A DNA stretch of 64,000 bases, from contig OX485806.1 of the NCBI GenBank assembly GCA_950295325.1, positions 49,781,169-49,845,168 of the forward strand. Reading direction: 5' to 3'. The stretch comes from Polytrichum commune (taxonomy: Eukaryota > Streptophyta > Polytrichopsida > Polytrichales > Polytrichaceae). Below the pieces are notes generated by a model that was given only the letters and a program-made list of their open reading frames with translations, made no database searches and was not told the DNA's origin. Shown here one piece after another: positions 30,063 to 55,700 of this stretch. How positions within the stretch are numbered: position 1 is the first letter of the stretch; every line of letters begins with the position of its first letter. Both the position numbers and the translations under genes were made by a program.

Positions 30063-32710
30063 GTTCATTTTGCCACATGTGCTCAAATTCCCAAATTTTC
30101 ACAAGCATTTTGAGGTGCATACAGAGGTGAGGGACTTTGCCAATGGTGAATGTTGATACAAGATGGATGGCCATTGTATATAAGAGCAAGAAAAACGGAT
30201 GGTTGTCCGACCTTGTCCGACTTGTTTAAGAAATGTCTATTCCAAAAGTGGGATGAGTTTGGTCACCAAGTCTTTGGGGAGCTTAAGAGCAAGTTGTCTT
30301 CGCCGCCCGTGCTCAAGTTTGTGGAGTTTGACAAACCTTTTGAGGTGCATACATGGGCCAATGACTTTATCATTGTTGGCGCAAGATGGATGGCCATTGC
30401 ATATAAGAACAGGATACTGGATGGTTGTCCGACCTTGTCTGACTTGCTGAAAAATTGGCTATTCCAAAAGTGGGATGAACTTTGTCACAAAATCTTTGGG
30501 GAGCTCAAGAGCAAGTCGTCTTTGCCGCCCGTGCTCAAGTTTGCGGAGTTTGACAAACCTTTTGAGGTGCATACAGGGGCCAATGACTTTGCCATTGTTG
30601 ATGCAAGATGGATGGCCATTGCATATAAGAGCAAGAAATTGGATGGTTGTCCAACCTTGTCTGACTTGCTAAAAAATGACTATTCCAAAAGTGGGATGAG
30701 CTTTGTCACCAAATCTTTGGGGAGCTTAAGAGCAAGTTATCTTCGCCGCCCGTGCTCAAGTTTGCGAAGTTTGACAAACCTTTTGAGGTGCATACGGGGC
30801 CAATGACTTTCCCATTGTTGATGCAAGATGAATGGCCATTGCATATGGGAGCATGAAGCTCGATGGTTGTCAAAGGAGATGGCCAACTCATGAGAAATAA
30901 CTCTTTGTTGTAGTGCAATGTTTGAAGATGTGGCAACATTATTTGGGGTCACACAAAGCAAAGGTCTACATAGACAATGTGTCCTTAAAGTATTTTGAGA
31001 TACAAGTGCAAGTGAGTGCCAAGCCACTGCGGTGGCACGATATCTTTGCGCTTATGAAGGTGGATTTGATCCACAAACCGGCCATAGCAATGTGGTGCTA
31101 GACGCGTTAAGTAGACGGAAAGAGCTCCAACCAATGAGCACTATCTAAATCTTGTGGCTAATGTTTACCGGTAAAGAAAACTTGTGATGCAAGATAAGAT
31201 AACGATATATTTACGACCCTAAAATATAAAGGTTTCTAGGTGAGCTTTGCAAGGGCAAAGGGCTCAAAGAGATCAAGTTTGTGAACATATTGCTCAAGTA
31301 TAAGCAAAGTTGGGTGTATGTGCCACAAGGCAAGTTGAGGCTATTGGTTTTCAAGGGAAATTATGATAGTCCCATTGTTGGCCATAAAGGAGGAAAAAAC
31401 CACCATAGAGTGGTGTCATAGAGGTATCATTGGTTGTGCATGAAGGAGGGTATAACCCACTTTGTAAAGGCTTGCATGGATGCCAAGTGAACCAAACCTC
31501 TTACCAAAAGCAAGGCGGCCTTTTGCATATCCCACCGGCGCCATGGTTTAGTGTTTTCATGGCATAGTGAAGCCATGGCATAGTATGTCCATGGACTTCA
31601 TCACAACCTTGCCAGAGCTAGAAGGGTATGATGCCATCTTGGTGATGGTAGATTGGTTTGTCAAGTTGGCACACATGGTGTTGATTGACGAAAGCGCAAC
31701 AGCGTTGGAGACCGCATAGCCTTTTCTCAATAGATGGTGGAGGTACCACGTGTTGCCAAAAATAATTGTATCAGATTGAGTTCCAAAGTTCACAAGTGCA
31801 TTTTGGAGGCATTTTTCTAGGAAGGTCGGAATGAAACTGAGGTCTAGTATGGCCTTCCATTCCTAAATGAATTGAGAAATGGAACGTGTGAATGAAATCT
31901 TTAACGAATACTTGAGAAACTTGGTGGGTGCGCCCAATGAGATTGGGTAGACTATGTGGGTCGAGCAAAGTTTAATTGCAATATAGCCACGTACTTGGTG
32001 ACCAAGGGGTCATCTTTCGTGGTGGCTTATGGAATGGATGTGCTCCAACCTACTAGCCTCACTCCCGGTGGGGCACATTCAACACTAGAGCTCAACCAAG
32101 ATGGTGAGGACTTGGCAAAGAAACGTGAACGAGTCTTGGAGATGACCAAGTTATTGGTGGAGAAACCCTGAAAGCACCAGAAAAAGCAAGTCAATGCCGG
32201 AAGACGCGAAGTGAAGTATGAGGTGATCTGAAAGGTGTTGTTGAATGTGAACAACTTCACCTTGCCCGAAGGCCTCACTCCAAAATTCATCTCCAAAAAT
32301 TGGAGCTTCATTTCCCATTGTGGAACGATTGTTCAAGGACATGTAGAAGTTGGAGTTACCGCCCGAGATCAAAGTGCATACGACATTCCATGTTTCGTTA
32401 CTAAAGCCATTTAAGGAAGACAACTTGTGATCCGATTGCAATCAATTGATTAGGCCACCTCTCGACCTTGTAGGAGGTCATTTGGAATATGAGGTAGAGG
32501 GCATCCTCAAGTGTAGGAAGACCAAGTGAAAGGAAAACACAAAGAAATACTTGGTGAAATGGCGAGGATACCATAAGAAGGAAGCCATTTGAATAGTGGC
32601 AAGAGACATGGTGAATGCCAAGGAATTGGTGAAGCATTTTGAAGAACTAAGGCTAAAGGTTCCAATAAAAAGAAGCGTAGGCATTGATGAGGACATCAAT
32701 CTCCTTTAGT
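30063..32710 (+). pseudogene. Gypsy RNase H, integrase and chromodomain remnant
   Basis: The broken element continues after the hAT-like insertion. RNase H is seen as FEVHT, then LDGCQRRWPTHEKELFVVVQ and HYLGSHKAKVYIDN, and ends near 31105 with LDALSRRKE. Integrase zinc-binding residues occur at 31380-31490 and the core at about 31590-31990 (MDFITTLPELEGYDAILVMV, then IIVSD), with many stops. A chromodomain follows near 32470-32645 (YEVEGILKCRKTK, KYLVKWRGYHKKEA, ARDMVNAKELVKHFE). This places the element among chromoviruses, whose chromodomain reads histone marks to guide insertion. GTGGGGGAGA at 32709 resembles a polypurine tract. Confidence 0.8.
30161..30826 (+). repeat. 222-bp tandem triplication within the RNase H remnant
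   Basis: Three copies of a unit start at AGATGGATGGCC (30161, 30384, 30606), and a fourth partial copy starts at 30826. Each unit encodes the RT/RNase H junction (ARWMAIAYKSKKLDGCPTL, FQKWDELCHKIFGELK, VLKFAEFDKPFEVHTGAND). The first two and most of the third stay in one frame, giving a 218-residue open stretch. This is an internal duplication, not seen in normal pol genes. Confidence 0.88.
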
Positions 32711-33407
32711 GGGGGAGAAACGCTAATAGTACACTTAACTTGGAGTCAAATCGCTCCACAACATGTACTTGTTCTTTGGCTTGAGGCAATAAATTGCAAC
32801 TTAACTGGTGCAAAGAAAAAAATATGAAATGAAGTCCTAGTCTTGTGTTTGTGTTTGGTTAGTGGAAAAAGAGGAATAGACATTCCAAACTAGGTTGGGT
32901 AAGCCGAGTAATTGGAGGCCATGGTTTGGAGTGGGTTTGGAAAAAACTAAGCAACGTCTTAGCCATGGGTTTGTCCGGGCGGGGGCAAGGTGATGGCGCG
33001 TGCTCATAAAAGTGCTACATATGAGCTAATGAGAGTTGGCGCATGGGAGTCATGAAGTCATGTCTCGAAAGAGCAAAGTGGGAACTTAGCATCATCCCCG
33101 TGCGATCGAGGCGTGGCTTAACAATAGAAAACCATCTCGGAGTTGCAACAAAAACAAATTTAGTGGAAGCGTCAAGGTCCGGCCTTAGATGTGTCAAATT
33201 AGGCTAGTGGAGCTTAATAAGCAAGGCCCCAAAGGAAGGGCAACCCAAGTGAGTCTTAAAGTAGGTGGGTCTAGTATAGGTTAGGTCCTTGGATCCTAGG
33301 AACGACACCTTTGGGACTATACCAAATTTGAAGATGCATTATGGGGATTGTGCCCTAAGGTAAACATAATGCCACACCATAGAGGATGGCAACTTGAGAA
33401 TTGGTGT
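32711..33407. other. 3' untranslated region of the broken gypsy, no gene seen
   Basis: No coding content recognised. It runs from the purine tract to the insertion point of the methyltransferase element at 33407/33408. It appears to continue after that element at 43284-43340 and then into an LTR. Confidence 0.4.
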
Positions 33408-33515
33408 TGTCGTGTAAACTAAGATCGTTAAACACAACAGATCGAGTGTCATCATCAACATCAATTAGCAAAATAAACATAGCAAACTAATATGCTAAAC
33501 AACCGCCTCTTCAAG
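33408..33515 (-). repeat. 108-bp block, outer copy (A1)
   Basis: On the minus strand it reads CTTGAAGAGGCGGTTGTTTA ... TTTACACGACA and lies just outside the 3' LTR. It equals the inner copy at 33950-34057 as far as I can see. It abuts GTGT, which also follows the 5' LTR. Confidence 0.85.
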
Positions 33516-33516
33516 A

Positions 33517-33947
33517 TGAGGGTTTCTCTCTCCAAGCTCAAGAAACTAAAAAGTCTTCTTACAAAGATTAAGAAACTCTAAAATTCACACACAAGAGTCA
33601 AGCTATCTCTCACTCCACGAAGGGAGAATCCAAGAGTGCAAGTGATGGAGAAAGAATGCAAAGGCTTTACTCATGATCTACTACACCATAGCCATAAGAT
33701 AGCAACAACAAGTTCTCTCTCTCTCAAAACACACTCACAAGACTTGACTTGACAACAATGGCAAGTCAAGATGCCTTCCTCTCCACATAACTCCAATCCT
33801 ATGTGGATTTCATCCATGGAGTGGATGAACAACTGACTAGGACTCCCAATGGAGTCCATAATCCATCCAAACACACATGGACTCCTATTGGAGTCCATTT
33901 ACTCCTAATTTGACGTGACTTGGCCCCCAATGTCGCCTCACGTGACA
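33517..33947 (-). repeat. 3' LTR, 431 bp
   Basis: Read on the minus strand it begins TGTCACGTGAGGCGAC and ends GAGAAACCCTCA, so it has TG...CA ends. It has the same length as the 5' LTR at 42853-43283. The differences I saw are single-base changes, mostly transitions. Confidence 0.92.
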
Positions 33948-33949
33948 GC

Positions 33950-34057
33950 TGTCGTGTAAACTAAGATCGTTAAACACAACAGATCGAGTGTCATCATCAA
34001 CATCAATTAGCAAAATAAACATAGCAAACTAATATGCTAAACAACCGCCTCTTCAAG
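33950..34057 (-). repeat. 108-bp block, inner copy (A2)
   Basis: Second copy of the block, between the polypurine tract and the 3' LTR and separated from the LTR by two bases. It shows no visible difference from the outer copy. Nothing like it flanks the 5' LTR. Confidence 0.85.
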
Positions 34058-34382
34058 TGCCCCCCCTAGCAGATAAGGAACCCCTCCAATCGGCTAGGAA
34101 TAAACACACTCATCGGTAGAGGTGTTGAACATGATGAAGTTGTTGCTACATCTATACATATCCAATTGGGTAGTGGTAATCTAAGGAATTAAATTCATGG
34201 TTGAGGAAGTAACCCAAGAACTGTAGGCTGGGTGCAATGTGAGCCCCATCCTTAATCGCCTTCAACAATTTATGTTGAATTCTTTGATAACTCTCCCAAT
34301 GTGATTTTCAATCCCATAAAACTTCCGACCAACTAGATAACAACTTCACCACTAAGACATGTGACAAACATCCACAAAGTCC
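34058..34382 (-). promoter_or_regulatory. Polypurine tract and 3' untranslated region
   Basis: A run of seven G on the minus strand (34066-34060) within CTAGGGGGGGCA directly precedes the 108-bp block. This is the expected place and composition for the plus-strand primer of reverse transcription. The rest of the interval to the integrase stop has no coding content. Confidence 0.55.
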
Positions 34383-35375
34383 CTAATCATGACCATTAAC
34401 GGCCATGGAGTGGGAGGCTTTCCGACAACGAGGACAAATCCAATTGCTAGAAGGAAGAGTCAAAAGGGGAGGTGTCAAACATGCCATGTGCCATCCACGT
34501 TGACAATGGTCGCACAATAACATCGTTACAGCTCCTTTCTTCTCTCCACACACATAACAAGGCAGACCCTGTGGTACAACCGCCAACTCGGGATGCACAG
34601 AGCCATCGATGGGAAGATGACATAGAGCACAATTCTTTGAATGCTCACGACATTCCCGTCCATCCTTGCCTTCAAGCAATAATATACCACTTGGTAAAAC
34701 ATCTTTTACCCGCAAAATTGTGCGCCCAGTCTTGACATCCAATGTCGTAGGCGCCTCCCGTTGCAAGTAAACATAATCCCCCTTGGAAAATCTACGAACC
34801 TGAGGTCGATAAGCTCCACTGCGGATCCGGGCATACCGTAATGTATCACAATGCTGAGCTATATTTAAGTTCTCCATGGCCATAGGGATGGCCTTTTGAA
34901 AGAATTCTGCTCGGTCATGAAGATATTGAGCCCAAACATCTGGATCATCCAAGTCTACCACAGGAGCCAATTTCTCTCGCACAGAGCTAGGTAAAATTGG
35001 TTCCCGTCCATACAAGAGTTGGTAAGGACTATAGGATGCCAAAGATGCTTGCGTGCTAAAACGGTAACCCATTGCTATCCATGGTAACATCAAGTCCCAA
35101 TCGCGATGGTTGCCATGAAACAACCCATACTTCCGTAAACCGCGCTTGACAGTCTGAACAATTTGTTCAGCTAAGCCATCTGCCTCAGGGTGATCTCTGG
35201 AAGTTGTTCGATGATCAATTAAAGCCTTAGTACACAAAGCCTCGAAAGATCCAAGAAATTCTCTCCCTTGATCCGTCAACACCTCTGCAGGTGCTCCAAA
35301 CCGTGCCAAAACTCGATCAAGAAATGCCATAGCCGCCAATTCTGAGGAATTTTGGGAAAGAGCCACGAGTTCAAT
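34383..35375 (-). CDS. Integrase core and C-terminal PHD finger segment
   Basis: Integrase inserts the cDNA copy into chromatin. This segment begins just after the stop at 35378 and carries the second catalytic Asp (VLTDQGREF) and the Glu (HPEADGLAEQIVQTVKRG). A GPY-like C-terminal region follows (FSKGDYVYLQREAPTTLDVK, then VKDVLPSGILLLEGKDG). The last 58 residues are a PHD finger. The first catalytic Asp (SLDFAGPL) lies in the preceding segment. The natural stop is TGA/TAG-type at 34383. Chromoviruses normally carry a chromodomain in this place, so the PHD finger is a substitute chromatin reader. Confidence 0.9.
   Translation of the reverse strand: MELVALSQNSSELAAMAFLDRVLARFGAPAEVLTDQGREFLGSFEALCTKALIDHRTTSRDHPEADGLAEQIVQTVKRGLRKYGLFHGNHRDWDLMLPWIAMGYRFSTQASLASYSPYQLLYGREPILPSSVREKLAPVVDLDDPDVWAQYLHDRAEFFQKAIPMAMENLNIAQHCDTLRYARIRSGAYRPQVRRFSKGDYVYLQREAPTTLDVKTGRTILRVKDVLPSGILLLEGKDGRECREHSKNCALCHLPIDGSVHPELAVVPQGLPCYVCGEKKGAVTMLLCDHCQRGWHMACLTPPLLTLPSSNWICPRCRKASHSMAVNGHD
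34425..34559 (-). other. PHD finger fused to integrase
   Basis: The order is CYVC, then 11 residues, CDHC, four residues, H, two residues, C, and then a final CPRC. This gives the C4HC3 ligand pattern. WHMACL, PPLLTLPSSNWICPRC and the aromatic before the last pair are typical of plant PHD fingers. PHD fingers read the histone H3 tail, either unmodified or methylated at Lys4. No aromatic cage can be judged without a model. Confidence 0.9.
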
Positions 35376-36413
35376 TCACTTACTAAAATGCTTCACCATC
35401 ACAAGTACATACTTTGCCCCACGTGGAGTGATAGTAAGCGGTCCGGCAAAATCCAAAGACCAACGATATCCCAAGCCCATAATAGGTAAAGGCTGAAGTT
35501 GAGGTAATAAAGTATTAAAACTTGACCTGACCCGGTCACATACTTCACACCTAGAAACATAAGTGGCAACCTGTTGATACATACCAGTCCACCAATATTG
35601 GTTGCGCAACATAGAGTGTGTCCTTCGCACTCCAAAATGTCCAAGCTCCTCGTGCACTTGCCGCACTAAAAAAACTCTTTGATTTAGCCTTAGAACGATG
35701 CGCCTTGTTCCGTTCGGCCACACACGAAATAACAAGCCGTTTGCCCAACAAAACCTTGTTATTCGATGGCTAACTCTATCTCGCTCCATAGCAGATAGTC
35801 CAAGAAGAAATATCCCTTGTTGAAGTTTGTGCAAGACCGCATGGTCTTCCCACACATCACTAACAACGAGAGATTTATCAACCTCCTCATCTTGTTCTTC
35901 CACAATGATCTCAGCAGCGAATCCCGACATCATTGTAAGATATGTAGCAGCGTGCCAACCCGGCACTGCCTCACGATTACAATATCCATGCCACCTGGCT
36001 CCAGTTAAATCCTCATCTGAAGGACTTGGATTGCGAGACAATCCGTCTGCATCCAAGTTGGCAATTCCTGCTCGGTGAACAACTTCAAAGTCATATTCTT
36101 GAAGTAACAATGCCCACCTAGCAAGTTTCCCGGTGAGTTTATCTGATTCCATAAACCATTTTAAAGGCTGATGATCAGTCACCAAAGTAAACTTTTGCCC
36201 ATACAAATAAGGTCGAAAATGTGCAATGGCCCAAACGGCCGCCAAGGCCTCGCCTTCATAAGAAGAATAATTAGATTCAGCATTATTATTGCTTCTAGAT
36301 GCATAACCCACCACATATTCTTTTTCCTCTTCATCTTTCTGTGTCAATACCGCTCCCAATCCCACTACACTCCAATCCGTGTGCAATTGAAAAGCTCTAG
36401 ACACATCCGGGCG
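35376..36413 (-). CDS. RNase H and integrase N-terminal segment
   Basis: RNase H removes the RNA template. It starts after the stop at 36416 with RPDVSRAFQLHTDW. The acidic residues lie in QLHTDW, the NYSSYEGEAL stretch, TLVTDHQPLKWFM and the terminal NLDADGLSRNP. A spacer follows. The integrase zinc-binding region is HEELGHFGVRRTHSMLRNQY with CEVCDRV, and the first catalytic Asp is in WSLDFAGPL. The segment ends at the TGA (35378) that replaces a conserved Trp. Confidence 0.9.
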   Translation of the reverse strand, partial: RPDVSRAFQLHTDWSVVGLGAVLTQKDEEEKEYVVGYASRSNNNAESNYSSYEGEALAAVWAIAHFRPYLYGQKFTLVTDHQPLKWFMESDKLTGKLARWALLLQEYDFEVVHRAGIANLDADGLSRNPSPSDEDLTGARWHGYCNREAVPGWHAATYLTMMSGFAAEIIVEEQDEEVDKSLVVSDVWEDHAVLHKLQQGIFLLGLSAMERDRVSHRITRFCWANGLLFRVWPNGTRRIVLRLNQRVFLVRQVHEELGHFGVRRTHSMLRNQYWWTGMYQQVATYVSRCEVCDRVRSSFNTLLPQLQPLPIMGLGYRWSLDFAGPLTITPRGAKYVLVMVKHFSK

Positions 36414-36485
36414 TCAAAGCACTGGCGCTGAACCGAGCCTCTGCTTCAATGTATCAAATGCGTGTTGTTGTTCCCGACTCCAAAT

Positions 36486-37526
36486 TCATGGTTGGTCTTT
36501 CCCCGTGAGAATGGTGAGAGGTTTGGCAATCAAACTAAAGTTTTTGACAAACCTTCTGTAATAATTTGCCAATCCTAGAAATGCCCGAAGTCGTGGTACA
36601 TCACTAGGAGCGGGAATTTTGTGCAAAGCATCCACCTTTGCTTGTTGCACACCAAGACCGCCAGGAACAATCATGTGGCTTAAATAGGGCAATCGATCAT
36701 GGAAAAACTTACATTTGCCATGATGTAATCGGAGTTCCCACCGTTGTAGTCGTTCAAATACCGCTTGCAAATGTTTCACATGATCCTGTGGACTATTATT
36801 AAAGATGATAACATCATCAATGTAACATCTAGCAAACGGTAAACCAGCCAATAATTGATCCATCACCCGTTGAAATTCAGCTGGTGCATTCTTAAGACCA
36901 AATGGCAAAAATTTCCAATGATAAAGTTGATCATTGTCATCTTTATCAATTCCCCAAAATGCGGTCTTCACCCGATCACCCAACAACAAAGGTAATTGAT
37001 GATAACCAGACCTCAAATCCAGAGTGCTGAAGATTCTAGCAAATCCCAGTGCATCAAACAATTCCTCTGGCATCGGCATTGAATACCGATCCGACTTGGT
37101 CTTGCGGTTGACTGGACGATAATCACCACACATCCGTTTTTCCGTCCAGTTGCCAAAGATATCTTTCTTTGAATGCATAACCGTGGCACAAGCGTACTCT
37201 CCATTGGAAAGTTCAATCAATTCCGCTGCCAATAATTCTTGACATCGAGTTTGAACATCCAACCTTTCAGCTGTACTAAGTCTGTACGGCCGTCTGAAAA
37301 TAGGATGGTCGTCCTCGAGTTGAATACGAACATGTTTACCTTTATATCCTTCAAGATCATGAAGACTAAAGGCAAAACAATTACGGTAAGAGCGAATAAA
37401 TGCCCGTACCTTTCGTGCTTCGACACCAGTAAGTTTTGGCCCCACTTCAATTGGCCAATCGTCAAACTCCGTGGTTTCCTTCTTCATAGAAGGATTGCCA
37501 CTTGGTGCCAGCACAACCTGTGATTG
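36486..37526 (-). CDS. Reverse transcriptase segment
   Basis: RNA-directed DNA polymerase of the Ty3/gypsy type. Landmarks in order are MCGDYRPVNRKT, STLDLRSGYHQLPL, FLPFGLKNAPAEFQRVMD, the catalytic CYIDDVIIF (YIDD box near 36.83 kb), and AFLGLANYYRRFVKNFS leading to RNase H. The segment starts after a TAG at 37529 and ends at the TGA at 36488. WSREQQHAFDTLKQRLGS follows between this and the next stop. All palm motifs are intact. Confidence 0.93.
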   Translation of the reverse strand, partial: QSQVVLAPSGNPSMKKETTEFDDWPIEVGPKLTGVEARKVRAFIRSYRNCFAFSLHDLEGYKGKHVRIQLEDDHPIFRRPYRLSTAERLDVQTRCQELLAAELIELSNGEYACATVMHSKKDIFGNWTEKRMCGDYRPVNRKTKSDRYSMPMPEELFDALGFARIFSTLDLRSGYHQLPLLLGDRVKTAFWGIDKDDNDQLYHWKFLPFGLKNAPAEFQRVMDQLLAGLPFARCYIDDVIIFNNSPQDHVKHLQAVFERLQRWELRLHHGKCKFFHDRLPYLSHMIVPGGLGVQQAKVDALHKIPAPSDVPRLRAFLGLANYYRRFVKNFSLIAKPLTILTGKDQP

Positions 37527-37529
37527 CTA

Positions 37530-37862
37530 GTCCGTGGAGAGGGCAACACCTTTGCCCCCATCATTTGAACTTGAATCCAAATGCGTATCCTCTCCACTAC
37601 AATCAGTTTGTGTAGCTAAATAGCTACCCACATATGAAGTGTCAACAAGAAATAGAAGTGGAAACATTTTATGGGCCTCCAACTTCCCAAAATCTTGGGC
37701 CAAAGCTGAAAAAACACGTTGGGCTCGAAACTCTTCCACAACCTGTTGCTTCAAAGAAAATAATTCCTCGGTGTCATTGACCTCTATGTGATCCTTGGAT
37801 TGCGGCTCCATTGCCCCCTGACTATTGTTCTCTGCCCTCAGAGGAAGCAATTGGTCATCCAT
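37530..37862 (-). other. Linker between methyltransferase and RT
   Basis: About 110 residues of the polyprotein without recognised domain. They are rich in Gln, Glu and Ser, including EVNDTEELFSLKQQVVEEFR, and end in a TAG at 37529. Confidence 0.6.
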
Positions 37863-38912
37863 ACGTTGTTGAGCAGCAAGACAAATTCCAATTATCCACA
37901 CAATGCTATTGAGATCCATAGCTTGTCCCAATAGGAAACGTCTCTGACCTTCCTGAAGCCCATGAGCAGCCGTGGTGCCTGTATGAAAACCCATGGCTCG
38001 TTCCCGCTCATCTGCCGTAGGCTCATCATGAGTTTGGGATTTTTAATCCCAAACCATGTCTGGTCCATGAGATCGAAATGCAAAAGATTGTGGATATGTC
38101 ACAAAAGTTGGTAGTGCATCTCTCGGAATTCCCACCTTGTTAATTAATGCAAATAGCAATGTGTCATCCTTGGTAACTGCCAAAGAAACACGATGAGCAT
38201 CTAAAATGTCATCCACCTTGCGATTCATAAGGCGGAGAATGCGGGCGATCGCCGCTGAAAGCACCTGAGGTGATACCAAATTGGTCCAAAACCAACGAGG
38301 CCGATGAGCAAAAGATCCCAAGGATGCAGCATCCAGAAATGTTGGAGTACCCAGAATTTGGTTAATGTACTCACCATCCTTCACCACTTTGTGCTGTGTA
38401 TCACCCAATAATGGCACATTTTCAAAAATGTACCCTGGCGGAGTTGATTGGTGGGTAAACCACCATTGTATCAATCGCATCAAATCCGCGAACAAACTAG
38501 ACCTAGGATCATCCAAACCCTGGCCAGTTCCTACCCGTGAATGGCCTTGACAAGGCCATCCTGCAATAATTAAATCCACGTGGCCCAATCTTCTCAAATC
38601 CTCATCACTAATCATAGTGACATCTTGAGGAAGTTGACCACAACATCCAAGAATGGTAGTGGCTGACAATTGTGCGGGGTACCTCAACAACAATTGTTGA
38701 ATGTGGTGTCGGACGGCTCTATTGGCTGCATATCCATTATCCACATGAATATATCGCCTAACTGTAATCCCAGCCGCCAACACTGCCGCCAAACCTGTGC
38801 CAATGCTCCCAAAGATTTCTACAAGGACAATACCTTCAGGTGGTGATTGCCAACGGATGGGTTGAGCAAAAGAAAATGAAGATGACGTTGGAGGCGTCTC
38901 TCCAAGCCCCAA
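37863..38912 (-). CDS. DNMT3-like C5 cytosine methyltransferase domain
   Basis: This domain transfers a methyl group from S-adenosylmethionine to cytosine C5 in DNA. Conserved motifs appear in conventional, non-permuted order. Motif I is VEIFGSIGTGLAAVLAAG and motif II contains YIHVDN. Motif IV is DLIIAGWPCQGHS with the catalytic Cys, then SLFADLMRLI. Motif VI is YIFENVP. Motif VIII-like FAHRPRWFWTNL is close to the AHRARYFWGNL of animal DNMT3. After a TAA at 38045 the same frame goes on with ERERAMGF and RRFLLGQAMDL, which fit motifs IX and X. The full fold therefore spans the stop. The first ATG-like residue in this segment is not a real start, because the domain is internal to the polyprotein. 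The conventional order separates it from plant DRM enzymes, which are circularly permuted. Confidence 0.9.
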
Positions 38913-39023
38913 GTCCGCTACAATGTGTCGACAATGGTCGGATAACTCTTTAGGGGTACGTCATGGTGGAGGTGGATCCTTGAAATGTCGAGCAGGAATT
39001 TGTAAAGTTGGCAAATTTTGTTG

Positions 39024-40283
39024 TTATGTTGTATTACAAGCGTAGTCCAATGTTTCCTCCAACAAAACTGGAGCACAAGGCAAATCCGCAACTGAACCAC
39101 TGCAACCAAACATTGCCTCCGCAACCATAGTCATAGAAGTAGCTGCAAATGCTACCGGAATAAATACCTTCCTGCCATCTCCAGAAGACCATCCCGGTCT
39201 AATCCATGCCTCTTCAGTCCAATTATCCAAACCAAAGCCAAGTGGATAAAGAGCTTGCTGACCAACAAGTATATCATAGTTGGTAGCATTAGTAACAACA
39301 CACTTCATTAACAAATGAGTGTAGGTAGGTCCTGCCCCCACATTAAAAATCAAACGTAGAGGTGCCTTGGTGTAACCTGTTGCACGTTCAGTGCCCCCTA
39401 CTGAAGTCACAATTGTGAATGGACAAGGAACTAAGTTTGCTGGCGTCAATCCAAGACTGTCAGCAAATCCTTTGCCAATCATAACCGGTTGAGCACCGGA
39501 ATCCATCATAACTCTCAGTGGTGTAGCACGAATAGTAGGCATATCCGTGCGTGAAACGACAAACAAAGATTTGTCGTTCATCAGTCGTACAACTCCAGGT
39601 TGCAAATTATACCGCTCGCGAGCAGGCCTTGCAGAAATATCTGCAAGATATGCCGCTCCTGCTGCATAATTCGAAAAGGACGTGTCCACTGCTGAAATTG
39701 TTGATGGATTAATATCAGTGTGCTTACCAAAAGCAATGATCGCCGCATCCGCAAGGCTCGCTCGCAAATTGGCTAAGTCCTCCACCTCCTCAGCCACAGT
39801 TACGTCAACAACAGCTTGGGACACTTGAAGGGATGGCAAATCCGCCTTACCTTCTAACATTCTCCCAACTAAATGGAAAACTCCAGCAGGCTTGAAATCT
39901 GGAGCCATCAACTCTGAACCCGAGAAAATTGGCATATAGAGAATTTTATATGCCAATGTCTGCGTAACATCCTTCGAGATGGAATCTCCATCTCTCAAAG
40001 GTACAGGGTTTTTAGTCCCAACAACAGTGGTGTCTACCAATCCAAATGAGAGAGGTAAACGTGCTTGACCAACTTGATCCGCTGGTCCAGCATGGCGAGG
40101 ATGTGACACCTCGTTGCTACCACCACTTGTAGAAGCCACCGCATTTGCCAATGTTTGTGATTGCGTAGAAGCCGCAGCCACCACCTCTCCAGATGCCCCA
40201 AACATATACATGTCCGCACCCGAGGTGCCACCACCTGCATGCGGCTCAGAAATTTGAGCGAAAGATGCAGAAGATTTGAGCTT
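39024..40283 (-). CDS. Retropepsin-type aspartic protease segment
   Basis: The protease cleaves the polyprotein. The active-site motif MMDSGAQPVMIGKGFADSLG lies near 39.5 kb, and the later conserved NYDILVGQQALYPLGF corresponds to the ILG flap-side motif of retropepsins. An N-terminal linker of about 150 residues precedes it. The segment is in frame with Gag across the TAA at 40286 and with the methyltransferase across stops at 39026 and 38963. An ATG at 40211 could serve as an internal start but nothing supports its use. Confidence 0.85.
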   Translation of the reverse strand, partial: KLKSSASFAQISEPHAGGGTSGADMYMFGASGEVVAAASTQSQTLANAVASTSGGSNEVSHPRHAGPADQVGQARLPLSFGLVDTTVVGTKNPVPLRDGDSISKDVTQTLAYKILYMPIFSGSELMAPDFKPAGVFHLVGRMLEGKADLPSLQVSQAVVDVTVAEEVEDLANLRASLADAAIIAFGKHTDINPSTISAVDTSFSNYAAGAAYLADISARPARERYNLQPGVVRLMNDKSLFVVSRTDMPTIRATPLRVMMDSGAQPVMIGKGFADSLGLTPANLVPCPFTIVTSVGGTERATGYTKAPLRLIFNVGAGPTYTHLLMKCVVTNATNYDILVGQQALYPLGFGLDNWTEEAWIRPGWSSGDGRKVFIPVAFAATSMTMVAEAMFGCSGSVADLPCAPVLLEETLDYACNTT

Positions 40284-41624
40284 TTACTCAAGCTCTGCCA
40301 CCTTAGCCTCAAGACTCTGCTCCCTTGGAGATTTGCCAGTGACATAACTGGCAGGCCGCATCTCAGGCTGAAGTTGGAAACAATGATCCACATCGTGATT
40401 AGTGCCACCACAATGGTTACATTTCAATTGTCTCTTCTTAGAATTGTCCCCTGCTTTTACTGGTTCTATCTTTTGTTTTAATTTTCCCAAAGGCTGGGTT
40501 TTCTTCTTCTTAGGACAATTGGGATCATTCTTCGAATGACCAGCTTCTCCACAACCCCAACAATGCAAAATCTTTTGCTCCTTAACGGTTTGAATCTCAG
40601 CTAAACTACTAGTAGCTGTCACAATTCTTCTTGATTTCGTACTCTCTGTCATCCAAGATACCATGTCTGTGGCATCGCGTTGACAGAGAGCCCGATCACA
40701 TCTCTCAACCACGGCAAACGCTTGTGCAAGCGTAGCTCTGCCTTCGTAGTCGAGGATAATCCGAGGTGATGCCAACTCAAATAGCCGCTTGTCAATCTTA
40801 GACAAAAAGATTTTGACAAGTTGACTCTCAGCAAAAACACCTCCCGACTCAACAGCAAAGCGTGCGAGTCGCGTATACATGGTCCGTGGAGTGTCATCCT
40901 TCTCTCGGCGGAAATCCTGAATGCGCTGCATCTGGTCTCGCCGAAATCCACCATACTCCACCTCCAAATGTGCGACAAATTCAGAAAGGGGATTAAATGG
41001 AGGTGGTGGACCAACAGCCGTCAATGCTGCATGTGTAGCACGTGCCATCCGTGAAAGGGTAGCCGTGCTACTGCCAACCACTATTGGCCCAAGTGCCAGT
41101 TCTTGGTCCTTAGACTCCTCCGATGGATCCTCCTCCTTTAAGGTGGGTGGAGCTAAGGTAGCAACCGCCCCATCTTTAAGGGCTGAAATAAGCTCAACCC
41201 GAGCCTCCCAATACTGCTCCACCTCCCGAAGTTGTCGCTGATGACCCTCTGTCCAGCGTTCATAAGTTTGGAGTGCCTCATACTCCAAATGCTGAGGCAG
41301 AAGTTCAAAGGCATACCAATCATTGAAATTGGAAGACCTTTGACGTTTCTCTTTAATCCAGGTACGAAACCGGAGTTTCCAATCGGGCAAGGAAATGCCC
41401 CCAGCTCGACCTGAAAACCGATCACGCACTGAATTGTGGCGATCGTCCTCCATTTCGTCGAACGTGCCGACACTCCAAATCCGAAGCCTACTAGTAGTGT
41501 CCAACGCCGAAATAGGCTCAAAAGCCTCGTTGGTATCTACCTCTGGCTCAAGATTTGTGGTATGCACGTCCTCCAAGTAATCTGGTGATGGAGATCGATA
41601 ATATCGGCTCCTAGTTTGCACCAT
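40284..41624 (-). CDS. Gag with two zinc knuckles
   Basis: The 446-residue capsid/nucleocapsid protein starts with MVQTRSRYYRSPSPDYLEDV. The capsid-like region has RDQMQRIQDFRREKDDTPRT and YTRLARFAVESG, typical of plant gypsy Gag. The nucleocapsid has two knuckles: CWGCGEAGHSKNDPNC (residues 355-370, CX2CX4HX6C, slightly long) and CNHCGGTNHDVDHC (402-415, canonical CX2CX4HX4C). The end SLEAKVAELE looks like a short coiled coil. The start is the first ATG after the leader and the only one that gives the whole domain. No stop lies within Gag. Confidence 0.9.
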   Translation of the reverse strand: MVQTRSRYYRSPSPDYLEDVHTTNLEPEVDTNEAFEPISALDTTSRLRIWSVGTFDEMEDDRHNSVRDRFSGRAGGISLPDWKLRFRTWIKEKRQRSSNFNDWYAFELLPQHLEYEALQTYERWTEGHQRQLREVEQYWEARVELISALKDGAVATLAPPTLKEEDPSEESKDQELALGPIVVGSSTATLSRMARATHAALTAVGPPPPFNPLSEFVAHLEVEYGGFRRDQMQRIQDFRREKDDTPRTMYTRLARFAVESGGVFAESQLVKIFLSKIDKRLFELASPRIILDYEGRATLAQAFAVVERCDRALCQRDATDMVSWMTESTKSRRIVTATSSLAEIQTVKEQKILHCWGCGEAGHSKNDPNCPKKKKTQPLGKLKQKIEPVKAGDNSKKRQLKCNHCGGTNHDVDHCFQLQPEMRPASYVTGKSPREQSLEAKVAELE

Positions 41625-41790
41625 AAAATAATCACTTGAGTACCTGCAACTATCTACAAGGTAATGACAACCTGCACTTGTTGCGGGCTATCTAAATGGC
41701 AATCCCTTGCCAAATGCCAAGTGTTTATTTAGGCCCCCAGAATTCCAAAATTGTGCAAAGGTTTGAGATTGGTAATTAAAATTAAAAAAA

Positions 41791-42222
41791 TCAGCGTTGA
41801 AAATGTTAATTTCCAAGGTGATTATGGACTCCAATCAACAAACTAATTGCACCAATGGACTCCTAGGAAGATTTCACGCAAATTAGGCTCAAATTTCACT
41901 CCGTTCGGAGTTAATTTGCACCCAAAAACAAAAATCAGCGTTGAAAATGTTAATTTCCAAGGTGATTATGGACTCCAATCAACAAACTAATTGCACCAAT
42001 GGACTCCTAGGAAGATTTCACACAAATTAGGCTCAAATTTCACTCCGTTCGGAGTTAATTTGCTCCCAAAAACAAAAATCAGCGTTGAAATTAATAATTT
42101 CAGCAATGATTTTGAATTCCAATCAACAATCCAATTACACCATTGGATTCCTTGGCAAATTTCACACAAGATAGGCTCAAATTTCACTCCAATCGGAGCT
42201 AGTATGCCCCCAAATTTGAACC
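41791..42222 (-). repeat. 144-bp tandem repeat x 3 in the element leader
   Basis: Units begin at TCAGCGTTGAAA (plus strand 41791, 41935 and 42079). The first two are nearly identical and the third is diverged. They lie between the 5' LTR and Gag, where packaging signals are expected. Each contains TCAAATTTCACTCCGTTCGG. Confidence 0.9.
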
Positions 42223-42852
42223 TCAAAGTTTGTGAGAATGGGATGCCAAGTTTGAAAGGTGAAAGTAAAAATGTGAAATAAAATAAATAAAAATAAAAAT
42301 AAAAATAATTGTTTTAATTAAACAAAAACAAAAACAAAATAAACAAAATAAACAAAAACAAAAACAAAAACAAATAAACAAATAAAGGTAAGGGCTTACC
42401 TTATGGGCTTGGCTGGCGCCGCCCGCCCGCCCCCGGCTTCAGGAACAGGAGCTCCAGGAGCTCCAAGAGCTCCAAGAGGGTCCGGTGAGCTCCGGATCGG
42501 TCCGGAGCTCAACAAAAATTAAAAACAAATCGGATTTGAACTAAAAAAATTAAAACTAAAACTAAATCGGATTTGATTAAAAAAAATTAAACTTTGCTTC
42601 CACAATTTGCAAGCAAGAAAGATGTGACTTGAGATTCCATTTGGTCTCAAGATTCAACCATCAACAATTCAAGAAAACACAAAGACACAACAAAAGAGAT
42701 GTGGAGATTTTTCTCAAAATCTTCTTGAGGGTTGCAAGGAATTGCAAACTAAGCTTTCATACACTTGTATCATTCATTTGCTCCCACTACTGGGCTATTC
42801 TAGCTCAGAAATACAACCAAAAATGAAAAATAAGCCCAATTGTTGTCAAGTA
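42223..42852 (-). other. Leader of the methyltransferase element
   Basis: It holds an A-rich run of AAATAAA/AAACAAA words (42270-42385), a GC-rich block (42405-42515) with repeated GGAGCTCC-like words, and the LTR junction at 42853. After the LTR the minus strand reads TACTTGACAACAATTGGGC. I cannot match this to a common tRNA primer site. Confidence 0.5.
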
Positions 42853-43283
42853 TGAGGGTTTCTCTCTCCAAGCTCAAGAAACTAAGAAGTCTTCTTACAA
42901 AGATTAAGAAACTCTAAAATTCACACACAAGAGTCAAGCTATCTCTCACTCCACGAAGGGAGAATCCAAGAGTGCAAGTGATGGAGAAAGAATGCAAAGG
43001 CTTTATTCATGATCTACTACACCATAGCCATAAGATAGCAACAACAAGCTCTCTCTCTCTCAAAACACACTCACAAGACTTGACTTGACAACAATGGCAA
43101 GTCAAGATGCCTTCCTCTCCACATAACCCCAATCCTATGTGGATTTCATCCATGGAGTGGATGAACAACTAACTAGGACTCCCAATGGAGTCCATAATCC
43201 ATCCAAACACACATGGACTCCTAATGGAGTCCATTTACTCCTAATTTGACGTGACTTGGCCCCCAATGTCGCCTCACGTGACA
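42853..43283 (-). repeat. 5' LTR, 431 bp
   Basis: It matches the 3' LTR (33517-33947) over its whole length with about six visible differences. Minus-strand ends are TGTCACGTGAGG and AAACCCTCA. It contains the element's promoter and polyadenylation signals by family rule. An E-box/G-box-like CACGTG is 3 bp from the LTR start. Confidence 0.92.
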
Positions 43284-43340
43284 GTGTGCCAACTACAAAT
43301 ATAGTTAACGAGGGCATCGACTCCATTTGGTCGGGGTAAG

Positions 43341-49745: not shown

Positions 49746-52700
49746 CTGGAAGAATAGAAAATATGAGTCCAAATATACAAGTGTCAATGTGGTAACTCAA
49801 ATTGCTAATATTGTCCAACATAGGACATAGAATATATTGAATACATAGGACATCTCACCGGAAGTAGAGCTTGGAGGTTTCTCCTTTCCAAAAAGACATC
49901 CAGCTTGACACCTTTATTTTCTATTTTTGGTGACACAAAATCCTCAACATGGATACCAGAATTCCTGTAAGCAGTGAGCATGAGCTTCTCCCCTTTCTCG
50001 TTTCTCAAAGTATCTAGGACAGCACCAAAGATGTCCAGAGAATAACCCTCCATTAAAATCTCACCACATTCTGCACCACCGTCCTTCAACAGGGTGTTTA
50101 CTTCAATCAGAGAAAACACGCCTGCAGAGACTAATCCTCCCAGTAAAACACCAAAAAACTCTGGTGCCTTGGGGACATCCACTGCAGTATCCACCAGATG
50201 TGAGAGTACTCCCTCCATCCTGCAAGTACAAATCACAAAAAGCACTAAGTTCATGTTCTGCTACAGAATGGCATATCAAATTGTCAGATAAGGAAGCACA
50301 TTCACAAATAGACAACAAAATCGAAGCCAAGCTTATATTGTGAAGCACAAACATTACCCTTCATAGAACTGCTCATGCGTTAGAAGCAAAGGTTCACACT
50401 TTGAAAGATGAAGAAGCAACTTCAAAAGCAAGTCTCTATCTTTTTCCTTCTTCTCTAGAGACTCTGACACCCAAGTCGAAACCATTACAGGATGGTATCG
50501 GGTAGCCTTCAACTCCTCCACACACAATGCAGCTTCTTTTAGGTCCATTACACTGCAGAAAGCAGTGGAGGGCATTATCAGGAAAAAAATTCACAATTGA
50601 GAAGATGGAAAAAAATGATCAACAGAAATTGTCAAGATGTAGACAGCTAGTGAGTTGAGCTGACTCAATCACATGAAACAAATGCTGCTGCCAAAGAAAT
50701 TTCAAGACATCGAGACTGTTTGTCTATTACAAACCTACTAAGACATGGAAAAGTAACCTGTAATATTCGTTTATGGTTGATTGACATTTCTGCTTCAGTT
50801 CTGCTTCGCTCAATAACAGTGAGGGACAAGGTGGCATCACTTCAGGCTGCTGTGGCTGGAATTCATAGACTGATGCATTTGGATGCTCAAGTTTGGCAAT
50901 GATTCTATTCTGTTCAGGTGTAATGCGCAAGTCTCGACCTCCATCAGGAGCCTTCAGTCTGCCTAAATGGATTTTTTCAGCTGGAGTAGGCTGTTCCGCG
51001 GTAGAAGCTCGCATTGGCATGTCCTCCCGAAAGCCATGATGCGGTCTGTCTGCAACACTGAATCGGACAACCCCTCCACCTGATCGGTGCACATCAGCAC
51101 ATGCCATGGGTGAAATATCACTCAATGCCCCTCGTCCAGTCGATGGTTGTCGAATGCCCAATGCCCTCCCAAGATTGCCCTGGGGGCCTAAAGTGATATA
51201 ACCATCATCAGTAGCCTTCTGAGTTAAAGGCAGAGGAACTGAACGGATGTCCACAAGTGATCTATCCTCCATCCGCACATCCTGGACAAAGCTCCCTCCC
51301 CCACCTTGCATTGCTCCTTGTGGAGATGGAGCCCTCCGCATGCCACCCAAAGCTGCCCCTGTCTCATTCAAGCTTGTACTTTAACTGATTGCACTTGATC
51401 TTGATAGTGAAACAACTAAGCATAAATGGAGTATATTCATTTACAAGCTCTTGACAAAACCAGGCACCCTCCAATTCCAAATTGTCTCTCTGAAACAAGT
51501 CAAGACAGGAACAACCACAGTTCCTCAACCACAGTATCATACAGAAAGACACACAAATAAGTCAAGGAAAAACGAAAAAAAAAAAAAATGCATGGAAGTG
51601 CATAAAGAAGCAGCTATACTACCCTTGAACCTCAATGTGCAAGATGACCAGGAATCAGATAGTGAAATCTCGGCATTGTATCCAATATATCTCCACGTAT
51701 ATATACACAAACTGATAAACGCAATGATCAGAGTGTCCACATACAGCTCCTTTCCCAATGCTCAATATGATGTCCTCTACGTCTTACCAGCACCTATTTG
51801 ATTTGGCGAAAATCCTGGCAATTGAGAACTCCGCATGGCAAATTCTGGAGAAGGTCCAATTCTAACTCGAGCAGGAGCACCTCCCATGCTAGGACCTCGA
51901 CGGTCTCCACGTGCAGCTTGCTGCCTCTCTTGCACAGCGTCTCTATGTACCTCATCAATTTTCTTGGGTCCTTCAACTTTTCTTCTCTCTTGCCATCCAT
52001 TTTGCCGAAGGTCAATAACATCCTTCAACATGAATCTCAACCTGGATGATAGCTTCATGTTATTTGATAGACCCTCTATTCTTCTGAAGTATTGATCGAT
52101 ATGCTCTTTAGCTTTTGGGTGATCAATGATTCGGCCAATCGTGCTCATCAACTTGCACAAGGCCTCAACATCTTCCTCATCCGGGTTATAAAATTCCCCA
52201 AGGAGCTTCTTGATGCACTCATGCATGATCCGCTCAGTTAACATGCTTTTTTTGTAAAGCTCTCCTATAAAGCGAATATTTCCTAGCATTCTCCTCCGTG
52301 CCTTCAACCGCTTCTCTTCTCTCTCCTCAGGAGTCAGCTTCACTTCACCTTCATTCTCTATCTTCTCAGCCTCTTCTTGTTCTCTTTCCCCACGCTCAAA
52401 CTCCACTTGACACTTATTGAGGAGAACTCGCTTGAAAGTAAATTTCTCATCATTTTCAGCAAATTCTGGTAAATCTGCAGCAAGCTTGACACAGAACTGG
52501 GCGTACATCTCACAGAATGTGGGCTCCATCAGTGCTTTGTCAAATATCTGTGAAATGACACCTGTGAGAGTTTCAGCAGAATCAATACTGGCAGCCTGGA
52601 CCTGTGCAAACAGTTTCTCAAAATTTTGAGGTGTCAGCTTGTTCAGAATCCCCTTAATCAGCCTCTGCTTTGCAGATTCCTCGTCTGAGACCTTACCAAC

Positions 52701-55700
52701 CTCATACCTATTTTCTGCCTTGTGGATTGCAGGTAATGGAGAGCGAGATGAGGAGATCATCCCTGAACCCACCATTGGTTGCCGATGCCACCTATCTCCA
52801 TCTACACCATTCAAATTTGCCCGAGAAGGAACAGGTGCCATGAAATGTGGAAGCATTGTGTTACCAGGCCCTCGTGAAATCAAACCCGTAAAACCTGTTT
52901 GCGGACTGACCATGCCAGGCCACACTGGTGATGACAGATGCGAAATTAATCCAGGCTGTGTATTTGTTTGTCCTGGCCGGAAACCAACTGGCATACACAT
53001 ATCCATTCGCACATCACCAAGCTGATTCCTTCCAGGGGATGGTACAAGTCCAGATTGTCTTGTCCAACGATCTTCATTTGGTCCATGTTGTACAACAAGT
53101 CCCCTTCGGTCAAGTCGTGGGCCACCACTGTTAGGCTGACGGTCCCCTATGCGTCCAGGGCTAGGTATTACATCCAGCACTCCACTGCCATATATAGCTG
53201 GGCTAAATAAATGATCTTGAATAATCTCGTGCCGGATTTCAAAATTAGGTGGAAGGTGCTGATTTTGGTCTTTGAAAGTCATAAGGAAATCACGAGTATA
53301 CTTCCTGTCACCTCGGTCTAGAGGTTGACCAAATGATACACTTGGTGTCGGAAGCTCAGCTGCATCCTCCCAGTCATCCACTTCCTTGAGTAAAGAGTTT
53401 TGTGGTACAGCAACACAATCTTTTACATCACTGTTCAAAAGGCCAGGACCAGATTCATCAATCTGCTTTACCCCTTCCAACTTCTTTTCTGGGGCTGCCT
53501 TGTATGCATTATACAAATCTGCAGTATTTCCAGCTGCATCTGCTCGGGCAAGAAACTCCTTCTTCTTCTTCTTTTTGCTGGCCCCTTTCAAACCTTCCAT
53601 TGCAAGGTTTGCATGTCCCATGGAGGTGGGTTCAAGCGTTTCCGTCCCATTTTCAGTAATGTGTACAGCTACACTAATTTCACCCAACGGACTACTCAAC
53701 AGAGGAGTACGCTCAATGACAGAACTAATTTCTTCAAATGAGAGGGCAGAAACGTCCTCACACCCAGTGGGAGCACTTTCTGTGGATCTCAAGTTGCCTA
53801 AAGATCTCAAACATGTGTTTGATTTCAATATGAATAAATCATCTGGAATTCCTGGCGTAGTCAGCTCCATAAAGTCATCCTGTTGATCCCCTGAGACGAC
53901 TGGCATCAACTCCGTCACAGGTGGATCTGATAACTCAACAGCTTTTACTCCAGACTTGGGTGTCCCTTCCACAGTATCAGTGGACAATGACAGAATTTGA
54001 ATTGCTGATTCCTCTACTTCACATGAATAATTATCTAGAAGTGCATCTGATTGTCTATCAATTCTATCAGATGCCAGGTCATTTTCAGATAGACATTTAT
54101 CTGCTTCATCTGTCTCGTCCAACACTTCAGCACCACCATTACTAGTCTTTCCACCAGTAAAATCTTTGACAAAGCTTAACTCTGTATCACCAACCTTGAA
54201 GCTTGGACCAACTCCTGTATTCAATGAAACCAGAGAAGATACTGTAGAATGACCAGTATCCCCTCCCTCCATTTGCAGAGCAGCCAACACACCCTGATCC
54301 CCACCTTCATCATTCTCCAAAAAAGAATCTGGTGTGACCATCCCTTCAATTGGTTTTAGAACCAAAGCAGATTCTTCCTCCAGGACCTGACTACCAGGCA
54401 CAGTTGAATCCAATTTAGAATCCAATTCACTGTCCAACCGCTCATTACGATATGTAACATCCCCATCTTTCCCTCTTTCCTCATCCTGCACTGATGCAGA
54501 GAAGCCTTCCTCAGCAATACTTTGCTTGCCCCGAAAATCGTTCAGATCCACTTCAACCTGCCCGATAGCACCAGTCACACACTTGCATCCAGGACAGGAA
54601 CTTGCAGAAGTCCCCGTTGTAAAGTTTGCATGGACTAATACATTTCTTTCACAAAGTGCACATTCCTTGCCTTTTGACACTTTATCCTTGCTAAAGGAAC
54701 TGTCAGATGAGGAACCAAATTTATCAGAGATTGATATAGAGGCACACTCATGCCCTGTTGGTGATCCTAAATCCCATGGTTCATTAGCATCTGCAAGTAC
54801 TATCTGTTGAGCAAGGAGCTCCCTTTCTTCCTTTCCAACAAATTCGCCAGCATCTTCAGTGTGTGGAGTCTCCAAAAATGAGGTTGTTTCTGGACAGGAA
54901 CAAACAGAACAAATGCTCTATAAGAGCTTGGAAGAGCCACAACCAAAGAGACTCAAAGTAGCAAAGTGAGGCATCAGATCCTCTTCTACACTAAGACATA
55001 GATGACATCCCAATTACAAGCCAATAACATGACTTGCTCAAAGCAAGCCAAGCATACAACAACCAAATAACTACATATGTCAATACAAACACAGCCTTCC
55101 CATAAATACCATCACCTCCACAAATGCATCCTTTCCATGTCCAAATCTATCAGAAATATAAACGATCAGTAATGTAGTAAAGCAGTAATCTATCAGCACA
55201 GTACACATTCAAATATGCAGTAAAGCCACCAGTCTTGGCCTAGTCCTGGACCAGTAAACCTAGCATCCCGACATTAAAAGTAGCTACAAATCAAGGATTG
55301 ACAAATAATTCCAGTTACTTGGTGTATAGGAGATGACAAAGAGATCTGAATTGCATGTTCTGTAGGACAGCAGGTATCACATGAATTAGTGGACATCTAT
55401 TATACTATGGAGATGAAAATGGACAACTGTAGACCCAACAGGAAGATTCATGGTATACCTATTATAATCAGAGAATTAAAGCCAATAAAGACTTTTGAAA
55501 CAAGTCCAAATTGAGAGACTACACAGTATTACACAGTATTTTTGCCAATAGGAGACAACCAATAATCGCATCACTGTGCTCTACTTTCACTTCAAATAGA
55601 TTGATACCATTCAACTCACGGTTGTTGCCTCACCAACTTATCCTACACAAGCATCCCCAATCATGACTGTCATTCAAAGCATCAGACTGCGACCTTCATC

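Follow-up and report, generated by a model that had tools for sequence, protein, structure and literature searches.

Cytosine methylation is among the main means by which plants defend themselves against transposons. Some retrotransposons encode a cytosine methyltransferase (MTase) of the DNMT3 type themselves, and the first gypsy element of this kind in print was KnitGypsy-Dnmt3 of Klebsormidium nitens, reported in 2018 by de Mendoza et al. (PMC5890265; here and below, statements on cited papers refer to excerpts of them). It is intronless and carries a Dnmt3-type MTase under purifying selection in its Pol polyprotein, together with repeats of the DIRS type (PMC5890265). The SymbioDIRS-Dnmt3 elements of dinoflagellates are likewise retroelements with a Dnmt3 MTase, and CG methylation by them was shown in yeast (PMC5890265). 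A paper citing the 2018 study places such elements in streptophytes and dinoflagellates (PMC12344493); the excerpts of PMC6453930 name no retrotransposon MTase.

Here we describe a Ty3/gypsy element in a window of 64,000 nucleotides of the moss Polytrichum commune (contig OX485806.1, positions 49,781,169 to 49,845,168; "window" denotes this whole stretch throughout). The element shares the listed features of KnitGypsy-Dnmt3 and differs from it in that the MTase is part of a Gag-protease open reading frame (ORF) closed by UAG-CARYYA and in that a PHD finger is present; SymbioDIRS-Dnmt3, in contrast, belongs to the DIRS class. Taken as a whole, with the steps of the mechanism proposed below included, we consider it fairly probable that the copy in the window is a decayed member of a recently active Ty3/gypsy family with an anciently captured DNMT3-type MTase.

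The methyltransferase and its copies in the moss genome

An ORF of 305 amino acids on the minus strand (38960-38043) matched the Pfam profile DNA_methylase (2.5e-12, 47.3 bits at a cut-off of 22) and, in a search against PDB, DNMT3A at 3e-8. Profile and fold were both nearest to DNMT3, with 83.9 bits for DNMT3 vs 21.9 for DNMT2. Motifs I, IV (PCQ), VI (ENV) and VIII, following what we take to be the usual MTase numbering, lie inside this ORF, and equivalents of IX and X follow beyond an in-frame stop at 38045, in a stretch that corresponds, in relatives, to the end of DNMT3A. The motif order is conventional from I to X, unlike the rearranged order of DRM enzymes. An earlier note on this DNA had proposed a gypsy retrotransposon with a DNMT3-like MTase situated between protease and reverse transcriptase (RT), in the frame of Gag and Pol and with motifs IX and X past a stop, all of which agrees with the matches and the domain order found here, the protease match lying under the Pfam cut-off. 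The domain is on the minus strand; in the interval given by the note, 37863..38912, frame 1 of the plus strand holds many stops and was rejected.

The stop at 38045 was found in three of the 30 copies read, namely the window copy and the loci L005 and L012. The window copy and L012 are mutually nearest (3.9% apart), and L005 stands apart from them, its nearest neighbours being other copies at 1.8%. The shared stop is perhaps a recurrent change or a product of recombination between copies, possibly with help in trans.

The genome of the moss (407.8 Mb searched, seven large chromosomes) contains many further copies. A search with the MTase protein gave at least 129 scored places (545 candidates), the Pfam profile 123 scored of 353, and a DNMT3A piece 150 scored of 296. 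Pooled, these were 243 distinct places, among them one host DRM, one host DNMT3-like exon and one place left unread; most of those outside the set of 129 are known by score alone. For a first subfamily 30 loci were fetched, the window copy included: the MTase was open in 24, and ten had no stop except the family stop described below over 1305 codons. A second subfamily, whose MTase is mostly 60-64% identical to the first, accounts for 11 of 30 loci that the Pfam profile had found. The paired A repeats of seven comparable copies are 97.9 to 100% identical, two pairs reaching 100% over 340 and 373 bases; some copies are recent and the family was recently active. Chromosome C4 had the highest density of the 243 places (0.95 per Mb vs 0.44-0.76), and 33 of its 56 places fall within 40-60 Mb, perhaps a low-recombination region or sex chromosome.

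Seven stops in addition to the family stop interrupt the window copy, as would be expected if a host gene had once been inserted into a dead retrotransposon. This explanation is refuted by the 129 MTase places, the second subfamily, uninterrupted copies and relatives in other plants, and we give it practically no weight. The refuting conditions named in the earlier note did not come true: other copies carry the domain, some of them free of extra stops, and the two host exons are distant from it and located elsewhere in the genome. The host DRM exon, in which the last motif precedes the first, is 24% identical to the MTase; the host DNMT3-like exon reaches 34% along a stretch of roughly 50 residues. 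DRM was also what the strongest host-like match to DNMT3A turned out to be, and this match was dismissed as a host DNMT3. A search for a host DNMT3 via DUF3444 gave eight exon matches, and no MTase was seen beside them in a profile scan of six loci or by tblastn of all eight.

Selection on the MTase was assessed by the ratio of nonsynonymous to synonymous substitutions (dN/dS). Mean dN over mean dS was 0.29 for open MTases (276 pairs). Further comparisons used 16 of the 30 first-subfamily loci, picked as mostly open, and seven of the 11 second-subfamily loci. Among the 16 chosen copies, the MTase core and the Gag/protease tail each gave 0.44, the RT stretch 0.34 and the linker after the MTase 1.14. 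In pairs with dS >0.1 the values were 0.26 for the core (15 pairs), 0.29 for RT (one pair), 0.33 for the tail (15 pairs) and 0.54 for the linker (six pairs). Between the subfamilies, dN/dS of the MTase was 0.12 to 0.17 at dS 1.7 to 2.6 (14 comparisons). Judged by these substitution patterns, many MTases are under purifying selection, and because selection keeps it, the MTase likely matters to the element.

Anatomy of the element and a conserved stop codon

The Gag-like protein, protease match, MTase, RT, RNase H and integrase are encoded in a common frame, and the order protease-RT-RNase H-integrase with a DDE core is that of Ty3/gypsy elements, the MTase lying between protease and RT (Table 1). 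Two zinc knuckles were recognised by eye in the Gag-like protein, for which Pfam gave no match in the window copy. Stops at 40286, 39026, 38963 and 38045 break the ORF1 frame here, and stops at 36488, 36416 and 35378 the ORF2 frame; uninterrupted versions exist in one other copy for ORF1 and in other copies for ORF2. The DDE core contains one of these stops and scores under the Pfam cut-off in the window copy, with two other copies above it. The best solved-structure matches to the PHD finger of another copy include CHD4, PHF12, KAT6A, PHF21A and KDM5. Chromoviruses carry a histone-reader domain at the C end of their integrase, and the moss element is similar in this respect; it has a PHD finger instead, and Pfam scans gave no match to a chromodomain.

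Table 1. Features of the Ty3/gypsy element in the window
Feature	Position	Strand	Remarks
Whole Ty3/gypsy element	33408..43283	-	Target site duplication ACAC, 4 bp, at 33404-33407 and 43284-43287
A1, 5' terminal repeat, begins TGTC	42852..43283	-	98.2% identity to A2
Tandem array of three 144-bp units within the 5' leader of the element	41786..42214	-	
ORF1 frame, 1386 codons: Gag-like, weak aspartic protease match, MTase	37527..41687	-	
MTase domain, DNMT3-type cytosine, motifs I-X	37791..38873	-	
TAG CAATCA, proposed leaky stop (UAG-CARYYA) at the ORF1/ORF2 border	37521..37529	-	
ORF2 frame: RT, RNase H, H2C2/DDE integrase, PHD finger	34383..37526	-	
Reverse transcriptase core	36672..37145	-	PF00078, 5.4e-28
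RNase H	36093..36407	-	PF17917, 3.9e-38
Integrase, H2C2 zinc domain and DDE core	35187..35669	-	PF17921, PF00665
PHD finger, C end of Pol	34425..34559	-	PF00628, 1.6e-10
B1, inner copy of short split repeat	33950..34057	-	100% to B2 over 108 bp
A2	33516..33947	-	
B2, 3' terminal repeat, ends GACA	33408..33515	-	

The element starts with TGTC and ends with GACA. In place of the simple layout with two long terminal repeats it has split direct repeats, with a 432-bp A at the 5' end and a 108-bp B, A and again B at the 3' end. Eight of ten other copies read show this B-A-B order, as does one second-subfamily copy. Where the inner B adjoins A, both element ends meet with two bases between them, like a circle junction, and a G-rich run immediately precedes B1. 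Target duplications of exactly 4 bp flank three of six elements, and in the remaining three, three of four letters match. Split repeats in the order A1-internal-B1-A2-B2 are typical of DIRS/PAT elements. Members of DIRS have a tyrosine recombinase and no DDE integrase, however, whereas the moss element has a gypsy RT, rve and H2C2 integrase domains and a 4-bp target duplication. The combination of DIRS-like split repeats with a DDE integrase has a precedent in Klebsormidium (PMC5890265). We regard the anatomy and the family assignment as virtually certain. The family-wide stop at 37529, the PHD finger, the split direct repeats and the target duplication all go beyond the earlier note.

ORF1 and ORF2 are separated by a single stop codon. 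TAG CAATCA stands at the same site in 27 of the 30 first-subfamily loci; one has TAA CAATCA, and no such site could be located in the remaining two. When the genome was searched with the stop codon left free, 120 places were obtained, and the 100 listed comprised 98 TAG and two TAA. All 11 second-subfamily loci read have TAG-CARYYA near this position, seven of them in the frame of the MTase start, and a corresponding search gave 83 places, all listed, with 81 TAG, one TAA and one AAG. Both subfamilies together thus have a stop codon at 182 of 183 listed sites. The hexamer following the stop is CAATCA in the first subfamily and CAATTA or CAGTTA in the second, all of which fit CARYYA; this difference was taken from individually read loci, because the genome searches fixed most hexamer bases. 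In two copies read, ORF1 of 1386 and 1366 amino acids adjoins in frame an ORF2 of 1047 and 1048 amino acids.

It could be argued that UAG is an ordinary terminator and that ORF2 is translated after splicing, from a transcript of its own or through re-initiation. A family-wide stop would be expected equally in that case, and splicing has a precedent, as Ogre elements of legumes take out a comparable stop in this way. Against an ordinary terminator, the six bases after the stop fit CARYYA in both subfamilies despite the differing hexamers, ORF2 follows in frame with no base gap and with its first methionine only after 116 residues (one second-subfamily copy read), and stable RNA folds lie downstream of the stop in each of the two copies whose folding was predicted (z of -2.4 and -3.0). 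We therefore consider termination of the ordinary kind improbable. Tobamoviruses have UAG-CARYYA as their type I readthrough signal (PMC5382211, PMC2754532), and what marks a type I site, this signal followed by an in-frame, constrained ORF, is present in the moss element. Its putative leaky site differs from the tobamovirus one in lying between Gag-protease-MTase and RT of a retrotransposon. Programmed UAG readthrough at the ORF1/ORF2 border is thus very likely.

The same split is probably present in related families, because of 26 relatives in which the last MTase motif is present and neither RT nor RNase H is matched, 22 end like ORF1, 86-141 residues past this motif, although contig ends are indistinguishable from stops among these 26. 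In the moss element ORF1 ends 126 residues past the motif (one copy).

Elsewhere in the window, an eIF4G-type gene was found at 51777-54917 (MIF4G, 6.5e-51). A tandem array at 30151-30871, with 3.3 copies of a 222-bp unit, codes for an RNase H-like retroelement piece, and an integrase-bearing retroelement fragment of 503 amino acids lies on the minus strand at 16486-17997, in which Pfam detected no MTase.

Relatives and probable origin of the methyltransferase

A search with part of an uninterrupted ORF1 returned 62 proteins, including by name 13 from Marchantia, one from Calypogeia and two from Sphagnum, which bears out the suggestion of an extension to land plants. The host itself has LEAFY genes, in three copies with D at the diagnostic residue in two and H in one, D presumably being the moss type. 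A wider search gave 587 proteins, and the 120 listed included at least four from K. nitens and at least nine from Closterium, with an MTase detected by Pfam in one and four of them, respectively. One match with a bacterial name, P0004, looks like contamination and was set aside.

Two domain orders were observed. In the named proteins of Klebsormidium, Closterium, Marchantia and moss in which both were found, the MTase precedes RT. At least 35 environmental proteins among the matches listed (including P0099, P0100 and P0130) have the order RT-RNase H-MTase-integrase-PHD, and none of the listed matches with this second order bears an organism name. The MTases of the second order form one clade (27 rows, support 99), and their RTs cluster as well (34 rows, support 99, plus three rows without MTase seen); to judge from these trees, this architecture is a clade of its own in environmental sequences. 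P0100 carries ECQ and ENT as catalytic motifs in place of PCQ and ENV. The environmental P0103-P0105 look like DIRS elements by eye, and their MTases form a separate clade with support 99.

The MTases of moss, Marchantia, Calypogeia and Sphagnum, together with environmental ones, form one clade of 17 (support 99). All 59 gypsy MTases are held together against DIRS-like and cellular rows at 80 in the Shimodaira-Hasegawa-like approximate likelihood ratio test (SH-aLRT). The MTase trees contain no full host DNMT3; P0190 (long branch) was left out of the last tree, and P0095 and P0106-P0108 out of the first. The K. nitens protein P0135 has the order MTase-RT-RNase H-integrase, with the MTase before RT as in the KnitGypsy-Dnmt3 lineage, and falls into the same large groups as the moss in the RT and MTase trees, not adjacent to it. 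The DIRS-like repeats are also shared with this lineage, the K. nitens side being taken from the legend of Fig. 4 (PMC5890265). No PHD finger is seen in the K. nitens MTase protein, which is incomplete, and no MTase in P0208, a K. nitens protein with a PHD finger.

These trees suggest that a single old capture of the MTase by gypsy elements is likely rather than established, because the 59 gypsy MTases unite only at 80. A bryophyte capture separate from those in Klebsormidium and in the RNase H-MTase-integrase type would be in line with this value, with an SH-aLRT of only 5 for the 32 rows with MTase before RT, and with an RT tree in which rows with and without a seen MTase intermingle. Yet some MTase-less rows may represent ORF2 alone, the slot before RT is common to Klebsormidium, Closterium, Marchantia and moss, and the second order stands as one MTase clade and one RT cluster; separate captures are in our view unlikely. 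Judged by its domains, the environmental P0214, a gypsy Pol, fills the protease-RT slot with another kind of DNA MTase, a Dam adenine MTase (PF05869), and has its PHD finger placed between RNase H and integrase. Only tentatively do we extend the single-capture reading to one event before the split of land plants and their algal relatives, after which the MTase would have been kept as part of a life cycle with leaky stop, PHD integrase and split repeats, and its slot moved in another branch; with P0214 in mind, some DNA MTase may be a lasting need of such elements.

As far as our searches show, the bryophyte families are new, and so is the placement of an MTase last in a Gag-protease ORF that closes with a family-wide UAG-CARYYA, with RT-RNase H-integrase-PHD continuing in frame. 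The matches listed in open-licence PubMed Central held no earlier report of bryophyte DNMT gypsies or of PHD fingers in such integrases, and searching the text of PMC5890265 gave no match for PHD or moss.

Proposed role and significance

We hypothesise that the element marks its own copies. A minority of ribosomes would pass the UAG, so that the MTase would be made and packaged at Gag-like levels and RT and integrase at lower ones. In the particle or in the nucleus, the MTase would methylate fresh double-stranded complementary DNA (cDNA) de novo, at CG at least, for which the SymbioDIRS-Dnmt3 enzymes are a printed precedent (PMC5890265). The PHD finger would tether the integrase to histone H3, and new insertions would land already marked, sheltered from foreign-DNA detection or settling in tolerated chromatin. 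For a role of the PHD finger in targeting we see evenly balanced chances, and for catalysis on the element's own cDNA slightly less than even ones.

The target may instead be RNA, the target site or host chromatin, the latter with more silencing, so that the host is spared. Such roles have been discussed for retrotransposon MTases (PMC5890265), and the PHD finger might recruit the complex to chromatin. However, the MTase scores far higher with DNMT3 than with DNMT2 and is part of the Gag-protease ORF upstream of RT, as a packaged component would be, so that we consider another target rather unlikely.

Several observations weigh against the proposed reading. PCQ is changed in three of the 30 copies, as is ENV. 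KnitGypsy-Dnmt3, the nearest tested relative, gave no methylation in yeast, a result which its authors called inconclusive, and the methylome of K. nitens was land-plant-like in the 2018 study, which speaks against a strong function (PMC5890265). There is no sequence sign of extra methylation of the copies, because CpG is undepleted (observed/expected 0.64 in the element vs 0.45 in the rest of the window) and differences of the C-to-T type show a mild CG excess only. The dN/dS values also contain decay after insertion, which raises them, so that the actual constraint is probably stronger. Among the most diverged pairs the linker is at 0.54 (six pairs), not >1, and the MTase at 0.26 (15 pairs), a smaller contrast between the two.

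A recently moving family that keeps a selected MTase of the de novo type in land plants would be a tractable system, and Marchantia offers both relatives and genetics. It opens the questions of what a parasite gains from methylation and whether such elements affect bryophyte methylomes. Counts of DNMT3 genes in plants may also be inflated by such elements.
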